The position numbers were made by a program, and so were the translations under genes. Below, in pieces: positions 9,024-17,058 of a stretch of 39,797 nucleotides of DNA; positions within the stretch are counted from its first letter, which is position 1; each line of letters begins with the position of its first letter. Under the pieces are notes generated by a model that worked only from the letters and a program-made list of their open reading frames with translations, searched no databases and was not told the DNA's origin. Source of the DNA: Candidatus Nitrosopumilus sp. (GTDB taxonomy: Archaea > Thermoproteota > Nitrososphaeria > Nitrososphaerales > Nitrosopumilaceae); assembly GCA_020431995.1 (NCBI GenBank), contig JAGQHE010000055.1:1-39797 (forward strand), written 5' to 3'.

Positions 9024-9128
9024 GTACCCATTTGGTTTTGTGATTATTTCAACTATTTGATGTACATGTTTTGTACTTTCATAATGCTTATCTAGATATG
9101 TAGTGAAAATCAGTAAGATTGAACATCT

Positions 9129-9362
9129 ATGGTGTTATGTAAATTTAGAAAAATATCTAAAACGTCAAATGATGTGCCTACAACCGTTTTATGTCCTGAT
9201 GATGTAAAATATGTCAAAATTAGTACTGATTTGATATATTATGATGCTAATGGATTCGCAGGACTCAAAATTTCTTTTGACTACTTATCTCCTCTTGAAG
9301 AAAAATCTGGCGTGAAATGGCTATCTCTTTATGTATATTCTATGAGGCAAAAATGGATCTGA
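9129..9362 (+). CDS. Hypothetical 77-residue protein
   Basis: The ATG at 9129 opens a 77-codon frame ending at 9362, overlapping the next gene's ATG (9353) by 10 bases. The sequence has beta-like stretches, DVKYVKISTDLIYYDANGFA and LKISFDYLSPLEE, with a conserved-looking YYDANG turn. No domain recognised. The overlap with the TPR gene points to translational coupling, which supports it as a real gene, but the start and function are uncertain. Confidence 0.5.
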   Translation: MVLCKFRKISKTSNDVPTTVLCPDDVKYVKISTDLIYYDANGFAGLKISFDYLSPLEEKSGVKWLSLYVYSMRQKWI

Positions 9363-10507
9363 ATGGTATGATTGATGTTAATTCTTTACGATATGTGGTT
9401 TTACTGCTTTTGGCAGGATCTTTGTTTTCTTTGATTCATGCGCAAACATCTGACGAACCTGCAATTTTATTTAAAAACGCACAAAATTTTATCAAAGACA
9501 AGCAATATGAAAATGCACTTAACGAACTAAATGTAATTTTGGAAAATGATCCAAGAAATGTAGACGCATTAAATGAAAAAGGTTCGATCCGTTTGATTCA
9601 GGGGAAATATGTCAAGGCTCTTCAAAGTTTTGAAAAATCTTTAGAAGTAAAACCAAAAAATATCTCTGGACTCGTTGGATTGGGCAATTCATTATATAAC
9701 CTTGACAGATATGATGACGCGCTAGATGCTTTTGACTCTGTGTTTGATATCGATGTAAAAAACATCGATGCTCTGCTTGGAAGTGGAAACGTCTTGGTAA
9801 AAAAACAACAATATGATGACGCAATATTATTCTTTAACATTGTGTTGGAACAAAATCCTGAATATGTTTCTGGTTTAATTGCAAAAGCCAATGCCCTTTC
9901 AAACATTAATCAGAATAATGACGCGTTGATCCTTTTCAACAAAGTACTTGAAATTGACCCTGACAATGTTTTTGCATTAAATGGGAAAGGTCTTGTGTAT
10001 TTGGAGTTAGAAGAACATGATTTGTCTAAGGATTCTTTTGCTGATGTTCTTGATACTGATGCAAATAATATCACTGCGTTACTAGGTGTGGCTGAATTGT
10101 ACTACCTTGAAGACAAGAATATAAAATCTGAGCAGCTGTATGATAAAGTACTGTACTTGGATCCCGATAACGTCGACGCACTGCTTGGAAAAGCAAATAA
10201 TCTTCGTAATACTGGGCATTTAGTTGATTCTTTAAAGTATTATGATGAGGCCTTGGAGGTAGATCCAGATAATCTGGAGGCATCAAACGGTAAAGACAGT
10301 ATTTTAAGCAGTGAGGTAAATGACTCGCTTGATTTAATCTTGATTATTACAATTATTGGAAGTGTTACTTCTGTGTTCTCTTTTGTTGTCATGATGATCA
10401 AAATTAAAGAAAATGCTCGTCTAAAAGACAGGATGATTATTGCAGATGAGCAGATTGAAGAGCTTGTTGACAAATTCATGAAAAGTTCGGCAAAATACAG
10501 AGATTAA
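9353..10507 (+). CDS. Membrane-anchored or exported TPR-repeat protein
   Basis: A protein of 384 residues from ATG 9353. It starts with a signal-like segment (RYVVLLLLAGSLFSLIHAQ, about 13-31) and carries eight consecutive 34-residue tetratricopeptide repeats (about 40-315), most ending in the DPDN/KPKN-type turn. A C-terminal TM helix follows (about 326-348, LDLILIITIIGSVTSVFSFV), then a cytoplasmic coiled tail (MIIADEQIEELVDKFM). The TPR solenoid would thus face outside the membrane and act as a protein-binding scaffold. ATG 9368 is an alternative start. An upstream in-frame ATG at 9317 would only add residues before the signal segment. Partners are unknown. Confidence 0.85.
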   Translation: MDLNGMIDVNSLRYVVLLLLAGSLFSLIHAQTSDEPAILFKNAQNFIKDKQYENALNELNVILENDPRNVDALNEKGSIRLIQGKYVKALQSFEKSLEVKPKNISGLVGLGNSLYNLDRYDDALDAFDSVFDIDVKNIDALLGSGNVLVKKQQYDDAILFFNIVLEQNPEYVSGLIAKANALSNINQNNDALILFNKVLEIDPDNVFALNGKGLVYLELEEHDLSKDSFADVLDTDANNITALLGVAELYYLEDKNIKSEQLYDKVLYLDPDNVDALLGKANNLRNTGHLVDSLKYYDEALEVDPDNLEASNGKDSILSSEVNDSLDLILIITIIGSVTSVFSFVVMMIKIKENARLKDRMIIADEQIEELVDKFMKSSAKYRD

Positions 10508-10553
10508 TTACGCGCAATTGACTGGTTTTCGTGATTTTCCAGCGCACTAAAAA

Positions 10554-10865
10554 TTACCCATAATCCACATATCTGTTGTATCTAATCTCGATTTCTTTGT
10601 TTCCTCCTGATTTGATTTTTTTATATTCTTCATTTTTTCTAAATTCGATATACTTGCGAATTTCCATAAATGCTTCTTCGTTAGGATATGATTCAAAGAC
10701 TGGCTCTATAGTTTTTAGATATTCTAGCGTTTTTTCTCTAAATTCTTCTTTTGTGGGTTTTTTGATTCCTTTCATCCTGAACCAAACTGCTGCCCAGCTT
10801 GCACCCACAACGTGTGGCAATAAGTCAAACGCTCTTTGAATTTCAAAACGTTCATCGTTTCTCAT
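10554..10865 (-). CDS. Conserved protein of unknown function coupled to hemB
   Basis: A protein of 103 residues, mostly helical, with a motif-like start: RFEIQRAFDLLPHVVGASWA, then AVWFRMKGIKKPTKEEFREK. The rest is amphipathic helices rich in Tyr and Glu (FESYPNEEAFMEIRKYIEFR). Its ATG overlaps the hemB stop as ATGA (10862-10865), so it is the last gene of the hemA/hemB unit and is probably made in step with HemB. No domain recognised. A role in tetrapyrrole handling is inferred only from position. Confidence 0.7.
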   Translation of the reverse strand: MRNDERFEIQRAFDLLPHVVGASWAAVWFRMKGIKKPTKEEFREKTLEYLKTIEPVFESYPNEEAFMEIRKYIEFRKNEEYKKIKSGGNKEIEIRYNRYVDYG

Positions 10866-11842
10866 GATTCTTGAAGAAACTTTGAAGCTGATTTGGCAAA
10901 GTATGTTACTATCATGTCGGCTCCAGCCCTTTTAATTGAGTATAGAATTTCTTCTGTAATGTCTTTTTCATTCACATATCCTAACTGTGAAGCTGCTTTA
11001 ACTAACGCATATTCTCCAGAAACACTATATGCTGAAACAGGAATGTTGAATTTTCTCCTTGTCTCTGCAATAAGATCTAAATATGATAGCGCTGGTTTGA
11101 TCATTACGATGTCTACTCCTTCGTTGATGTCTGTCTCAACTTCCATCATTGCTTCCCTTGCATTTGTATATGGGACTTGGTATGTCTTCCTGTCTCCGAA
11201 TTTTGGAGCACATTCTGCAGCATCTCTGAATGGTGAGTAAAAGTTTGAGCGATGCTTCGCTGAGTGTGACATTATTGAAACATCTGTAAACCCTTCATCG
11301 TCAAGCGCTTTTCTTATTGCGGCAACTTGACCATCCATCATGGCTGATGGTGATACTGTGTCTACTCCTGCCTTTGCTTGACTTATTGCAATCTTCGAAA
11401 GCGTATCTAAACTGACATCATTATCTATTTTATTTCCATTAACTATCCCGCAATGTCCTGTTGATGTAAATTGACACAGACAAACGTCTGCCATTATCAC
11501 TATTTTATCACCAAAATTCTCTCTGATCTGAGATATTGCTTTTTGAACAATGCCTTTATCTTCAAATGCTGAAGTTCCTGCTTCGTCTTTTAAAGATGGT
11601 ATTCCAAAAAGCATGATTGCAGGAATTCCTAATTCACTAATCTTTGCTACTTCGTCATTTACGTCTTCAAGTGGCAACCTCTCGATTTCCGACATTGATT
11701 CTATCTTGATTCTATTTTTCAGATCTTCCTGAACAAAAACTGGGCATATGAAATCTTTTGAAGATAATGCTGTTTGCTGAACCAGATCTCTCATTTTATC
11801 TGATGTCCTCAATCTACGAAGACGCCTAGTGGGAAATGACAT
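10862..11842 (-). CDS. hemB: Delta-aminolevulinic acid dehydratase (porphobilinogen synthase)
   Basis: A protein of 326 residues, full length for HemB. It joins two 5-aminolevulinate molecules to porphobilinogen. Visible signatures: a three-Cys zinc site at Cys121, Cys123 and Cys131 (ADVCLCQFTSTGHCG), marking the zinc-dependent type, and the two active-site lysines Lys196 (SHSAKHRSNFYSPFRDAA) and Lys249 (VMIKPALSYLDLI). The first Lys motif normally reads SYSAKYASxFYGPFRDAA. The His substitutions here are mild. It lies downstream of hemA (31-base gap) and upstream of a coupled unknown gene. Cytoplasmic. Confidence 0.97.
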   Translation of the reverse strand: MSFPTRRLRRLRTSDKMRDLVQQTALSSKDFICPVFVQEDLKNRIKIESMSEIERLPLEDVNDEVAKISELGIPAIMLFGIPSLKDEAGTSAFEDKGIVQKAISQIRENFGDKIVIMADVCLCQFTSTGHCGIVNGNKIDNDVSLDTLSKIAISQAKAGVDTVSPSAMMDGQVAAIRKALDDEGFTDVSIMSHSAKHRSNFYSPFRDAAECAPKFGDRKTYQVPYTNAREAMMEVETDINEGVDIVMIKPALSYLDLIAETRRKFNIPVSAYSVSGEYALVKAASQLGYVNEKDITEEILYSIKRAGADMIVTYFAKSASKFLQES

Positions 11843-11872: not shown

Positions 11873-13144
11873 CTAGTCTGCGTTATTGTGTTTTTTATAG
11901 TCAAATAGCTTGCTTGCAAGTTCAACTATGTCTGAATTCCCTTCCTCTGATGCTTTTCTTATGTTGTTCATTGGAATTGAAACGATGCTTTCTGCTACTG
12001 CTTTAGTTAACTCTTCAATTATCTTGATCTTTTTCTCATCTTTCTCATCTAGCATTTGGAGTGCTTTCTTCAACTCCTTTTCTCTTAGATTCTCTACATT
12101 CTTGAATACGTTTTTTACAAGTGGCTCTGCTTCCAATCTTTTCATCGAGGCTTCTAGTATGCATACTTCCTCATTAATTATACTTTCAACTGTTTTCACC
12201 TTGTTTAATCTTGCATTCATGTTTTTCTCAACCATTTCTGCAATTTGATCCAAATTCATCAATTTCACTCCTTTTATGGTTGCAACTTTTTCATCAACTG
12301 TTCTTGGGTTTGATAAATCCAGAATCATCATCCCTTTCTTCTTGTCTTTCATTGCTTTGGTTATTCTCTCATTTGTCACAAGAAAATATGGCGCAGTGGT
12401 TGCAACAAATATTAGATCATAATAATCAAATCCTGAAAGAATCTGTTCAAATTTAATTGGATTTCCTCCCATTGTTTCACAAAATGCCTCAGATCTTCCG
12501 ATGGTTCTACTTGTAACATCGAACTTGTATCCACGTCTCTGCAGTGATTTTGCAACAAGGGTTGACACTTCACCAGTTCCAATCAATAGGATTTTCTTTG
12601 TTTTTAGCTCATCAATGTTCTCTTCTGCAAGTTTTACTGCCATTGACCCAACTGAAATTCCCCCTGCCCCAATTCCACTTGAATTTCTTATCCGGGTTCC
12701 AATTCTAATTGCCTTGTCGAATAATGTGTTGAGGTGCTGACCTGATGCTTTGATCTCTCTAGCTGTTGTGATTGAATCTTTTATTTGCCCAAGAATCTGC
12801 TCTTCTCCAAGTACCATGGAATCTAATCCAGAGGTCAATTTCAGTAAATGGTGGAATGCATCCTTATTCTCAACGTATTCCATGTTCTCGTCAAACAGAT
12901 CTTTTTCAAGCCCGGTGATCGATGCCCATGTTTTTTTAATCTTGTCTAAATCATTCATTTCTGACTTTCCAAAAAGCTCTATTCGGTTACATGTCTGAAT
13001 AATCACACACTCGTCTAACCCTGAATGTTTTTTGAATAACTCACATGCATTCTCTATGTCTTTAATCGTAAACTGCTCTAGAATGTGGATTGGTGAATTA
13101 CGAAAAGTTACCCTTGCATTGATGATATTTTGATTCATTTCCAA
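11873..13144 (-). CDS. hemA: Glutamyl-tRNA reductase
   Basis: A protein of 423 residues. It reduces glutamyl-tRNA(Glu) to glutamate-1-semialdehyde, the first committed step of C5-route tetrapyrrole synthesis. Catalytic Cys52 is in IIQTCNRIELFG. The substrate domain is followed by GLDSMVLGEEQILGQIK and SVGSMAVKLAEE, and the NADPH-binding Rossmann motif is in KKILLIGTGEVSTLVAKSL. The C-terminal dimerisation domain (about 310-423) is helical and charged. The start overlaps the stop of the upstream dehydrogenase gene by 10 bases. Met1 and Met3 are both possible starts. The operon order is dehydrogenase-hemA-hemB-unknown. Confidence 0.97.
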   Translation of the reverse strand: MEMNQNIINARVTFRNSPIHILEQFTIKDIENACELFKKHSGLDECVIIQTCNRIELFGKSEMNDLDKIKKTWASITGLEKDLFDENMEYVENKDAFHHLLKLTSGLDSMVLGEEQILGQIKDSITTAREIKASGQHLNTLFDKAIRIGTRIRNSSGIGAGGISVGSMAVKLAEENIDELKTKKILLIGTGEVSTLVAKSLQRRGYKFDVTSRTIGRSEAFCETMGGNPIKFEQILSGFDYYDLIFVATTAPYFLVTNERITKAMKDKKKGMMILDLSNPRTVDEKVATIKGVKLMNLDQIAEMVEKNMNARLNKVKTVESIINEEVCILEASMKRLEAEPLVKNVFKNVENLREKELKKALQMLDEKDEKKIKIIEELTKAVAESIVSIPMNNIRKASEEGNSDIVELASKLFDYKKHNNAD

Positions 13145-13788
13145 TTCCTCAATATTGTAATTACTCTCTTTTCAGCTTTTTTCATCTGACCGTCTTTTAT
13201 TAACTGATCAATCTCATTGTCAGCCATGACAATGTGTAGATACTTCCTTCTTTGATCTTGGGTGGGGATAGTCTCTTTTGCCAATTTTCTTGCGATCTTT
13301 TGAATCTTAATTTGAGATATGTCTTCTTTTGAAATAACTCTCTTGAATATTTCTTCTGATTTGTCTTTGATTTTTTTTGACATAATTGGACTCTGACCTC
13401 CTGTGAAGATTGCAATTTGGATGGTGTTTTCAAAATCTATTATTGCGGGATTTGAAAAATCACTGTCTTCCGGGTTGTCTGAGCTATATGCGATGATTCT
13501 TTTCTTTTTTGCAGCGTCTATTATCCTCTGATTTATTTTTTTATCATTTGTTGTTGTAATGATGATGTCTGGTTTAAATCTTGAAATAAACCCCATATTT
13601 TGAATTTTCTGTTTTTCAAATTTGATTTTCTTTGATTTTGATAATTTGCTAATTTTGGTATTGTCTGAATCACTGATTACTGTTATCTTGCAATCTTGTC
13701 TTAACAATGAATTTATTCTTTTTTGAGCCTCTTTTCCACCTCCTATGACGATAACTGTTTTGCCTTGAATATTTAGATCAACTATCAT
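13135..13788 (-). CDS. Precorrin-2 dehydrogenase (siroheme synthase N-domain, Met8/CysG-N type)
   Basis: A protein of 217 residues. It oxidises precorrin-2 to sirohydrochlorin with NAD+, and some homologues also insert iron. The NAD fold is at the start (QGKTVIVIGGGKEAQKRINS), then ITVISDSD, then PDIIITTTNDKKINQRIID and the NPAIIDFENTIQIAIFTGGQSPIMS block that defines this family. There is no SUMT methyltransferase domain, so it corresponds to the free-standing archaeal form. It is the first gene of the hem transcript and feeds the siroheme branch used by AhbA/B, encoded divergently. A TATA-like ACATAAATA (minus strand, about 13813-13821) lies about 28 bases before the start. Confidence 0.88.
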   Translation of the reverse strand: MIVDLNIQGKTVIVIGGGKEAQKRINSLLRQDCKITVISDSDNTKISKLSKSKKIKFEKQKIQNMGFISRFKPDIIITTTNDKKINQRIIDAAKKKRIIAYSSDNPEDSDFSNPAIIDFENTIQIAIFTGGQSPIMSKKIKDKSEEIFKRVISKEDISQIKIQKIARKLAKETIPTQDQRRKYLHIVMADNEIDQLIKDGQMKKAEKRVITILRNWK

Positions 13789-13889
13789 CGATCAAATGGG
13801 CTGGAGTTTCTATTTATGTATTAAATCTAGGAATAAAATACTAGCTACGTTTTTAATTGAATGTATGGGTTACTGTCGTAGTGACTTCT
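13789..13889. promoter_or_regulatory. Divergent promoter between the hem operon and ahbAB
   Basis: A 101-base spacer. For the minus strand, a TATA-like ATAAATAG is centred about 28 bases before ATG 13788. For the plus strand, ATAAAATA (13832-13839) and TTTTTAAT (13850-13857) are candidates 36-54 bases before ATG 13890. The shared spacer would let one regulator set both halves of the heme pathway. Confidence 0.45.
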
Positions 13890-14903
13890 ATGGATGAATC
13901 TGATAAAGAACTCTTAAATGAAATCCAGTGGACGTTCCCTCTTGTAACAAGACCCTTTGATGCTATTGCAAAAAAATTTAACACTACTCCAGATGATATC
14001 AAAAATCGGCTGAACACGCTCAAAGAGACTGGGATTCTAAGACAACTGAGTGCTATATTTGATACTCGCAAACTTGGTTATACTAGTTCCCTTGTTGCAA
14101 TGGAAATTGAAGATGATCAATTAGAGAATGTTGCAAATCAAATTAATCGTCACCCTGGAGTAAGTCATAATTATGAGCGAGATCACCAGTTTAATCTTTG
14201 GTTCACCCTAGCTGTTCCGCCAGGATCTGATTTGAAAGATGAGCTTGACAAATTCAATGTTCTTAAAGGAATTAAAAAAGTTAGGATGCTTCCAACTCTA
14301 CAATTGTTTAAGATTGGCGTCAAACTGGATATGGTTGATGATAAGAAGCATGAGGTCGCACCAACAGAGGCAAAAAAAGAGATCAAAAATATAAAATTTG
14401 AAGCTACAGAAGAAGATAAAGAGTTTATTCGTGAATTGCAAAAAGATATGGCGATAACTGATGAGCCATTTGTAAACGCCGCAAAAAACCTTGGTATTAC
14501 TGAGAACGAGTTATTTGAGAAAATGAAATATTATGAAGACATTGGTGTGATGCGAAGATTTGCTGCTATCTTAAGACATAGACAAGTTGGATTTACTGCT
14601 AATGGTATGATAGTTTGGAAAGTACCTGAGGATAGAATTTCTAAAGTTGGGGAGACATTGGGATCTTTTCCACAAGTAAGTCACTGTTACGAAAGACCGA
14701 CATATGACGACTGGCCATACAATGTATTTTCAATGATTCATTGTAAAACTCAGAGTGAGGCAAATGAGATGGCAAAAAAAATCCAGGAACAAATCCATGT
14801 TGATGATTATAGGATTCTCTTCAGTTCTCGTGAATTTAAAAAAACACGTGTGGAATATTTTGTAGAAAATTCATTTAGTTTAGAAGAAACAGTGCCTGTT
14901 TAG
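13890..14903 (+). CDS. ahbA-ahbB: Siroheme decarboxylase, fused AhbA-AhbB
   Basis: A 337-residue protein made of two AsnC/Lrp-like halves. Each has a winged-helix start (ELLNEIQWTFPLVTRPFDAI at 8-27, and EFIRELQKDMAITDEPFVNA at 178-197) and a RAM-type domain. Half 1 carries VSHNYERDHQFNLWFTL (91-107), and half 2 carries VSHCYERPTYDDWPYNVFSM (263-282). These His/Tyr/Arg motifs are the hallmarks of AhbA and AhbB, which decarboxylate siroheme to didecarboxysiroheme in the archaeal heme pathway. In most organisms they are separate genes. The ATG at 13890 matches the family start. In-frame TTG 13857 and GTG 13881 are alternatives. A plain Lrp regulator is unlikely because of these motifs. Confidence 0.88.
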   Translation: MDESDKELLNEIQWTFPLVTRPFDAIAKKFNTTPDDIKNRLNTLKETGILRQLSAIFDTRKLGYTSSLVAMEIEDDQLENVANQINRHPGVSHNYERDHQFNLWFTLAVPPGSDLKDELDKFNVLKGIKKVRMLPTLQLFKIGVKLDMVDDKKHEVAPTEAKKEIKNIKFEATEEDKEFIRELQKDMAITDEPFVNAAKNLGITENELFEKMKYYEDIGVMRRFAAILRHRQVGFTANGMIVWKVPEDRISKVGETLGSFPQVSHCYERPTYDDWPYNVFSMIHCKTQSEANEMAKKIQEQIHVDDYRILFSSREFKKTRVEYFVENSFSLEETVPV

Positions 14904-16243: not shown

Positions 16244-16383
16244 TTTTTATTCTCCAATTGTTTTGAGTTTATCTCTGTACGTTTCAAAACTATTTTTTCA
16301 GTTAAAAACTGACCATTTATGTTTATCCAAGATTTGCACTCGTGATATTTTGGATCAAAATGGAAATATGTTCTGCTATTGGT
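16240..16383 (-). other. In-frame open stretch after the chlorite dismutase-family stop
   Basis: Directly after the TAA at 16384-16386, the same frame stays open for 47 codons (TNSRTYFHFDPKYHECKSWI and on) and ends with a TGA overlapping the TTG start of the aldo/keto reductase. There is no usable start near its beginning. It may be a former C-terminal extension, a readthrough product, or chance. See findings. Confidence 0.25.
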
Positions 16384-17058
16384 TTATCCCAAACTGGAAA
16401 TAAGAGGCACAATATCTTTTTTTATACACACGATCATTGGGATGTCATTTTTGACATATGATGATACTTGAGTTTCTCTTAAATCCATTATGAGATCTTG
16501 GAAATCTCTAATGTTGTCTACTTCAAATGCTAACATAAAATCCTCATCATGTATGCCGAACGAGTATGTTGTATTGAGCACCACCTGTGGATACTTTTTA
16601 CTTACTTCTATATGTTCATCCATTATTTCTTGACGTTTTTCCTTTGGTAACAGGTACCACTCTCTTGTCTTTGTAAATGGGTACACGATGACATGTTTCT
16701 TTGGCTCATTTCCTGTGACAAATCCATGGGCCTTTTGTTCCTGTACGTACATTGATGATCGTGTGCATGACAAATATGTCCTAGATGGAATAATGTACTT
16801 TCCAAATACTGTCTTGTATAACTTTTCAATCACAATTTGAATTTCTTCAACTGATTTTGCTGCAAACCAAAACAAAAAATCTACATCATCTCTTAATCCT
16901 AAATTTGAATATGATCTAAATCTTATTCCTGAATTATTTATCACGTTTTCCACTTCTTTTGCAGATTCTTCTTTCGCAAGATCTGCCATCCATCTCCATT
17001 TGGGATCTACTTTGAAAAATGAGAAATTAAAATAATACTGTTCATTGCTTCCTGACAT
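16384..17058 (-). CDS. Chlorite dismutase-family heme protein (coproheme decarboxylase-like)
   Basis: A 224-residue protein of the Cld/HemQ (ChdC) family. Family features: an N-terminal ferredoxin-like half (YYFNFSFFKVDPKWRW...), then KKHVIVYPFTKTREWYLLPK with Tyr126 and Lys130 spaced like the Tyr/Lys pair of coproheme decarboxylases. The EIMDEHIEVSKKYP region carries the probable proximal heme ligand His149, and the closing strands are LNTTYSFGIHDEDFMLAFEV. Family roles include chlorite dismutation and the final decarboxylation to heme b. A siroheme-route decarboxylase lies 1.5 kb away. Strong TATA box 27 bases before ATG. Confidence 0.88.
   Translation of the reverse strand: MSGSNEQYYFNFSFFKVDPKWRWMADLAKEESAKEVENVINNSGIRFRSYSNLGLRDDVDFLFWFAAKSVEEIQIVIEKLYKTVFGKYIIPSRTYLSCTRSSMYVQEQKAHGFVTGNEPKKHVIVYPFTKTREWYLLPKEKRQEIMDEHIEVSKKYPQVVLNTTYSFGIHDEDFMLAFEVDNIRDFQDLIMDLRETQVSSYVKNDIPMIVCIKKDIVPLISSLG

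Follow-up and report, generated by a model that had tools for sequence, protein, structure and literature searches.

The coproheme decarboxylases (ChdC/HemQ) of S. coelicolor and C. diphtheriae belong to the chlorite dismutase (Cld) family, and a tyrosine radical mechanism has been described for ChdC (PMC10548856). A distal histidine, His118, is described as a mark of the actinobacterial branch of ChdC rather than of all ChdC. A Cld-family stand-in for AhbD is already known in an archaeon. Haloferax volcanii has AhbAB and keeps both AhbC and AhbD, and its Cld-family enzyme PitA, which carries an ABM-like domain, serves aerobically while AhbD serves anaerobically (Kosugi 2017; PMC5746218).

For archaea that rely on AhbAB, the 2010 survey of these genes reported AhbAB in N. 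maritimus and found fused nirDH (AhbAB) to be common in archaea. It listed both nirJ-like genes as absent from N. maritimus, S. acidocaldarius and H. walsbyi, doubted heme synthesis, and gave archaeal hemE and hemH as known only from Thermoplasma and Picrophilus (Storbeck 2010; PMC3004389). Ammonia-oxidizing archaea (AOA) were later noted to lack these genes and to have cytochrome b, their heme genes being said to need further screening (Park 2014; PMC4010524). One Cld-like enzyme has been reported in each of seven AOA, its function in archaea being described as not known (Daebeler 2018; PMC5817080).

Here we analyze a 39,797-nucleotide stretch of DNA from Candidatus Nitrosopumilus sp. (contig JAGQHE010000055.1, hereafter the window), in which a Cld gene lies close to heme genes. 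The following features of the window are relevant.

10862..11842, minus strand: hemB, porphobilinogen synthase
11873..13144, minus strand: hemA, glutamyl-tRNA reductase
13135..13788, minus strand: precorrin-2 dehydrogenase (CysG N-terminal domain)
13857..14903, plus strand: fused siroheme decarboxylase AhbA-AhbB, 348 aa
15245..16243, minus strand: aldo/keto reductase (AKR, PF00248), 332 aa, candidate AhbC substitute
16261..16353, minus strand: DUF1802 gene remnant (39 bits; E 2.9e-9 for a search limited to this short stretch)
16384..17058, minus strand: Cld/ChdC-family protein, 224 aa, proposed coproheme decarboxylase

Results

The window cluster shares AhbAB, precorrin-2 dehydrogenase, HemA and HemB with the Ahb route (AhbA-D) and differs from it in that AhbC and AhbD are absent from the genome (1.73 Mb, 99.16% complete). 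An initial sequence-only reading had placed the beginning of the pathway at 13890, and the ahbAB gene there, with its start at about 13857-13890, is real: one open reading frame matches AhbA with 282.8 bits and AhbB with 263 bits, both above the NCBIfam cut-offs. That reading had also described a siroheme-route organism, in agreement with the presence of AhbAB and the absence of HemE, for which we found no match in this genome or in any of the other AOA tested (7/7 negative, this genome included). Directly after hemB, at 10554-10865 of the window, lies a gene for a conserved 103-aa protein that occupies this place in many Nitrosopumilaceae regions and has no Pfam or NCBIfam match.

We looked for ahbD in the full genome, and nothing passed the model. 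The best match, at 39.6 bits against a cut-off of 500, is the tetraether synthase Tes, and the same Tes protein is the best match for AhbC (31.5 bits, cut-off 650). A hidden AhbC or AhbD among the radical-SAM proteins was rejected after all 16 PF04055 matches of the genome had been read. BioB, CofH, MqnC, Tes, AmmeMemoRadiSam, CofG, MiaB-like, Elp3, RlmN and TYW1 lie above NCBIfam cut-offs; those below cut-offs or nameless are MqnE-like, KamA-like and QueE-like proteins and three proteins designated L011, L020 and L021, none of which resembles AhbC or AhbD. The last three may be regarded as the candidates left for an unrelated radical-SAM replacement. As a separate observation, the genome carries futalosine menaquinone radical-SAM proteins (MqnC and MqnE-like) as well as Tes (L009, L012, L010).

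The Cld gene had been proposed to complete the heme pathway. This proposal is supported for the AhbD step, ahbD being absent, and fails for the pathway as a whole: because AhbC, the enzyme before AhbD, is missing too, Cld cannot complete the route alone. It can cover the AhbD step only, and the conversion of didecarboxysiroheme to coproheme is without an assigned enzyme.

The open reading frame at 16384-17058 is genuine and runs on the minus strand from 17058 to 16384, the plus strand there being rich in stops. Its 224-aa product scores 200.6 bits against PF06778, the Cld superfamily (E 2.4e-59; Pfam gathering cut-off 25), and is the sole PF06778 match in the genome. With the NCBIfam HemQ equivalog it scores 147.6 bits, under the cut-off of 235, which we count against a ChdC assignment; because the same model gives just 126.6 to a Cld that belongs to an intact HemE/HemH operon of an archaeon, it is too narrow for archaea. 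The best solved relatives by sequence are the coproheme decarboxylases of S. coelicolor (1.5e-28) and C. diphtheriae (9.9e-22), with true chlorite dismutases ranking behind them. When an AlphaFold model of the protein (pLDDT 87.6, pTM 0.84) was compared with the PDB by Foldseek, S. coelicolor ChdC came out on top (4.3e-19, TM 0.84 to query) and Nitrospira Cld appeared from rank 15 on. Chlorite dismutases nevertheless reached TM 0.81-0.87 to query, and the predicted fold alone does not separate ChdC from chlorite dismutase. In a Cld tree (midpoint root, SH-aLRT support only), the AOA Clds share one branch of support 100 with seven archaeal Clds from hemA/hemE operons and four bacterial Clds, and the Sulfolobaceae Clds fall apart from it. 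Because the protein groups with the Clds of archaeal hemA-C-D-B-Cld-L-E-H operons, coproheme decarboxylase is its best reading.

Three codons of the putative active site were located in the window.

16681..16683, minus strand: Tyr126, at the place of the catalytic Tyr135 in C. diphtheriae ChdC
16669..16671, minus strand: Lys130, Arg in actinobacterial ChdC
16612..16614, minus strand: His149, at the place of His158, the proximal histidine in C. diphtheriae ChdC

The motif YPFTK starts at Tyr126 and its lysine is residue 130, as first numbered, and Tyr126 does stand at the catalytic position of a solved ChdC: it falls on chain position 137 of the C. diphtheriae enzyme, and a two-residue tag offset, fixed by the W183Y entry, makes this Tyr135. 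The Tyr/Lys pair had been taken as a mark of coproheme decarboxylases. The tyrosine bears this out; the lysine is not a universal ChdC mark, because both actinobacterial ChdCs carry Arg there. In the same alignment, His149 corresponds to His158, which we take to be the proximal heme ligand, Phe174 to Trp183, and Lys109 to His118; the lack of the distal histidine, with Lys109 in its place, also counts against a ChdC assignment. The AOA Cld is therefore like the enzymes of S. coelicolor and C. diphtheriae in fold, catalytic tyrosine and proximal histidine, and unlike the actinobacterial ChdCs in having Lys rather than Arg at Tyr+4, no distal His118, and Phe instead of Trp183. Its gene stands beside AhbAB rather than beside HemE/HemH.

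Among 42 related archaeal Clds, Trp134 is present in all, Tyr126 and Lys130 in 41 each, and His149 and Arg194 in 40 each, the exceptions at Tyr126 and His149 coming from two reduced genomes (G111 and G134). A further 17 Clds, from AOA and bacteria, keep all five residues without exception. The tyrosine and the proximal histidine are not enough to distinguish ChdC from all other functions within the Cld family. Arg173 of chlorite dismutase has a role in catalysis. The window Cld contains no Arg at residues 143 to 183, the stretch corresponding to this distal residue; the comparison was made by region, with the position of Arg173 in N. defluvii Cld taken from structure titles. The window protein thus shares its fold with the chlorite dismutases (Nitrospira defluvii, Azospira-type), and differs from them in lacking Arg in the Arg173 region and in genomic context.

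We compared the window with 18 other AOA regions, mostly picked for closeness of AhbAB and Cld. The AKR gene follows Cld on the same strand in 19/19, and AhbAB converges on the AKR within ~1.2 kb in 17/19. In 15/19, Cld and AKR are separated by a DUF1802 gene; this gene is decayed to a remnant in the window, absent in three further regions, and intact there in most other AOA. Nitrosopumilus MAGs show the same gene order, and the window AKR shares 91% identity with the AKR from a Nitrosopumilus MAG; the host is accordingly an AOA. Three genomes were picked for separated genes: two keep Cld-DUF1802-AKR with AhbAB elsewhere, and in G076 the AKR stays with AhbAB and Cld lies away. The Cld thus sits in a conserved Cld-(DUF1802)-AKR cluster facing AhbAB, which is new here.

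G111 and G134, genomes of ~0.8 Mb, have no AhbA match and no AKR in the Cld region examined. Their Clds have diverged (62 and 48.7 bits); Cys replaces His149 in both, and one has also lost Tyr126. The loss of the proximal histidine along with AhbAB in these genomes ties the role of Cld to AhbAB. The diverged genes of the reduced genomes lie at L115 8004-8630 and L135 8141-8773.

Profile searches across the class, covering 150 genomes each with their tables read together, detected Cld in 126 genomes and AhbA at E 1e-15 in 124, above cut-off in 119. At 1e-30, an AhbC-like match occurs in 21 genomes, and those 21 are also the ones with an AhbD-like match at that threshold. The positive controls of the AhbC and AhbD searches, H. 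volcanii and M. acetivorans, were both detected; S. acidocaldarius was detected for AhbA and Cld, and not for AhbC/AhbD at 1e-30. Among the 119 genomes with confident AhbA, 118 have Cld, G141 alone being without it, and a single genome, G119, has AhbC/AhbD-like matches. Four Cld-negative genomes are presumed to be those of families f11 and f12.

The AOA genome G119 carries two adjacent AhbD-like radical-SAM proteins (L127 6925-9399), with no hem genes recognised in 16 kb around them. One of the two was scanned, and its best fit is TIGR04053 (240.6 bits, cut-off 395), a name that does not exclude AhbD, because the protein at the AhbD position of the Ahb clusters in family f8 also matches TIGR04053 best.

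In 27 chosen genomes, HemE was found in 8 and AhbA in 19. Seven of the 8 HemE genomes are without AhbA, the other (G280) having a weak 50-bit match only, and 18 of the 19 genomes without HemE have AhbA, G111 having neither. Thus, the HemE and AhbA routes are nearly exclusive. Cld occurs in an operon with hemA, hemC, hemD, hemL and hemE in seven HemE-type loci, accompanied by hemB in 6/7 and hemH in 4/7. L114 has no separate hemB; for hemH the exceptions are two loci of family f23, in which it was not recognised, and L114, which stops at a contig end; the names hemC, hemD, hemL and hemH come from reading the sequences and HemE from the profile search. These loci, from Nitrososphaeria and further Thermoproteota, are heme operons of coproporphyrin type that include Cld and HemE (L111 5072-12910; also L106, L107, L110, L112, L113 and L114).

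A first idea that the Sulfolobaceae as a whole lack AhbC proved wrong, since 15 of 18 examined have it. Two Sulfolobaceae with AhbAB and Cld have no AhbC/AhbD pair (best match 68 bits in G200). No AKR match was found in G200 in 160 kb around AhbAB, a stretch including its hem genes, or in G322 in the stretch around AhbAB, where its hem cluster was not found. The missing step may be solved differently in these Sulfolobaceae (L117, L122).

A scan of genome contigs with the AKR alignment yielded at least 80 loci, in which heme genes were tested by tblastn. In L156, an unclassified bacterial MAG (JADDQE010000146.1), precorrin-2 dehydrogenase, hemA, hemC, SUMT-hemD, hemB, DUF1802, AKR, Cld-AhbAB and hemL stand in a row, a nearly complete hem cluster with a single GNAT gene interposed, and AhbC/AhbD gave no match within 16.9 kb. 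Cld and AhbAB are here one 726-aa open reading frame (9064-11241), a Cld-Rieske-AhbA-AhbB fusion with Cld at 189.5 bits, Rieske [2Fe-2S] at 65.4, two siroheme-decarboxylase HTH domains and two ligand-binding domains. Other bacteria have AKR-Cld-AhbAB-hemA (Poribacteria), AKR-AhbAB (Omnitrophota), Cld-DUF1802-AKR (Proteobacteria) or AKR-Cld (Rubrobacter). Among the matches listed there are 12 bacterial loci, of which 7 (L145, L147, L152, L158, L159, L161 and L172) show the link of DUF1802 to AKR only.

A branch with 100/94 support divides the tree of 72 AKRs: every one of the 21 linked rows (those with Cld, DUF1802 or AhbAB anywhere in the locus examined) falls on one side, which comprises 33 rows, and none of the 39 rows on the other side is linked; some of this clustering is built in, because the query included linked AKRs.

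The AhbC step in AOA has no known enzyme, and the AKR is our first candidate for it because it is the most constant neighbour. As an AhbC substitute it is a testable guess, which we hold with low confidence. Aldo/keto reductases normally reduce carbonyls. AhbC removes two acetates from didecarboxysiroheme, and the chemistry by which an AKR might do this is not obvious, since acetate loss from a saturated ring is no carbonyl reduction; the Rieske domain of the fusion protein hints at electrons being delivered for an oxidative reaction. The closest solved AKR, IolS (3.2e-27), is uninformative about the substrate.

The AKR is not a clean candidate for replacing AhbC in general. AKRs that form a separate, long-branched sub-clade of the AKR tree neighbour Cld in G010 and AhbAB in G235, two genomes that have AhbC-like genes as well (232.6 and 236.2 bits). 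Beside AhbC-bearing routes, an AKR could be an aerobic alternative, by analogy with PitA and AhbD in Haloferax, or have some other role.

DUF1802, considered as an AhbC substitute, was weakened by its ASCH-like model, by its decay in the window and by its absence between Cld and AKR in 3 regions. The nearest structures to the model (pLDDT 88) are ASCH domains (Z 9.7, rmsd 3.6 A over 133 residues; Foldseek 1.4e-4). No tetrapyrrole enzyme appears among the rows of the VIA list from this structure comparison, which says nothing on function.

Discussion

Cld is likely to be the enzyme that finishes heme b synthesis in this AOA, a ChdC-type coproheme decarboxylase standing in for AhbD as the final step of the siroheme route. 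If it works as the ChdCs already studied do, coproheme III would bind through His149 as proximal ligand and serve as both substrate and cofactor. Its iron would be oxidised by peroxide, or by O2 plus a reductant, and a Tyr126 radical would take hydrogen from a propionate, CO2 leaving and a vinyl group forming. The half-product would then turn for the second propionate to be processed. The pathway still broken at AhbC counts against a ChdC assignment, as does the statement that AOA have one heme protein, cytochrome b (PMC4010524). PitA is similar as an archaeal Cld-family enzyme used aerobically in the presence of AhbAB. In contrast to H. volcanii, the genome studied here is without both AhbC and AhbD.

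Could Cld instead be a heme carrier, sensor or peroxidase that performs no biosynthetic reaction, in an archaeon that imports heme or uses other enzymes? The missing AhbC step, which leaves the pathway incomplete on paper, and the 2010 doubt that N. maritimus makes heme (PMC3004389) would fit such a role. We regard it as improbable, given near-invariant Tyr126, Lys130 and Trp134 and a clustering with early and middle heme genes that is conserved across AOA families.

A second alternative, which we consider quite improbable, is that Cld also acts earlier: it would take didecarboxysiroheme and remove two acetates oxidatively, then two propionate carboxyls, with AKR (Rieske in one bacterium) giving electrons for O2 activation. 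A single Cld in a genome missing both AhbC and AhbD, and the fusion in L156 of Cld via Rieske to AhbAB, the maker of didecarboxysiroheme, are consistent with this scheme. However, Clds of the same clade occur in HemE/HemH operons, whose coproheme is made by a route that bypasses didecarboxysiroheme, and we found no residue setting the AOA Cld apart for a second reaction.

That the protein is a true chlorite dismutase or an O2-producing (dark oxygen) enzyme of ammonia oxidizers, as the existing annotation has it and as is hinted by the O2-production passage of a 2023 AOA review, which includes function-unknown chlorite dismutase-like proteins (PMC10432482), is highly improbable in view of the absence of Arg from the distal position of Cld and its vicinity, the ChdCs as nearest solved relatives, the linkage to hem genes, and the loss of the proximal histidine where AhbAB is lost.

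With Cld as terminal coproheme decarboxylase, AOA and scattered bacteria may run an O2-compatible siroheme branch, in which one AKR subfamily, aided by O2 (and by a fused Rieske domain in one bacterium), replaces AhbC, and Cld/ChdC replaces AhbD. We offer this larger scheme tentatively, and it may well prove wrong in its AhbC part.

The absence of both radical-SAM genes in such archaea has been published (2010, 2014), and what is new is the cluster linking Cld, AKR and AhbAB, together with its recurrence in bacteria. In the literature searched, which lay mostly outside subscription journals, we found no publication linking AOA Cld, AKR or DUF1802 to heme synthesis, which is weak evidence of novelty. 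The gene cluster joins two loose ends, the missing heme genes of AOA and a "chlorite dismutase" of unknown function. For the one step that still lacks an enzyme, the genes next to Cld can now be named as candidates, and the AOA "chlorite dismutase" itself is probably a heme-finishing enzyme.
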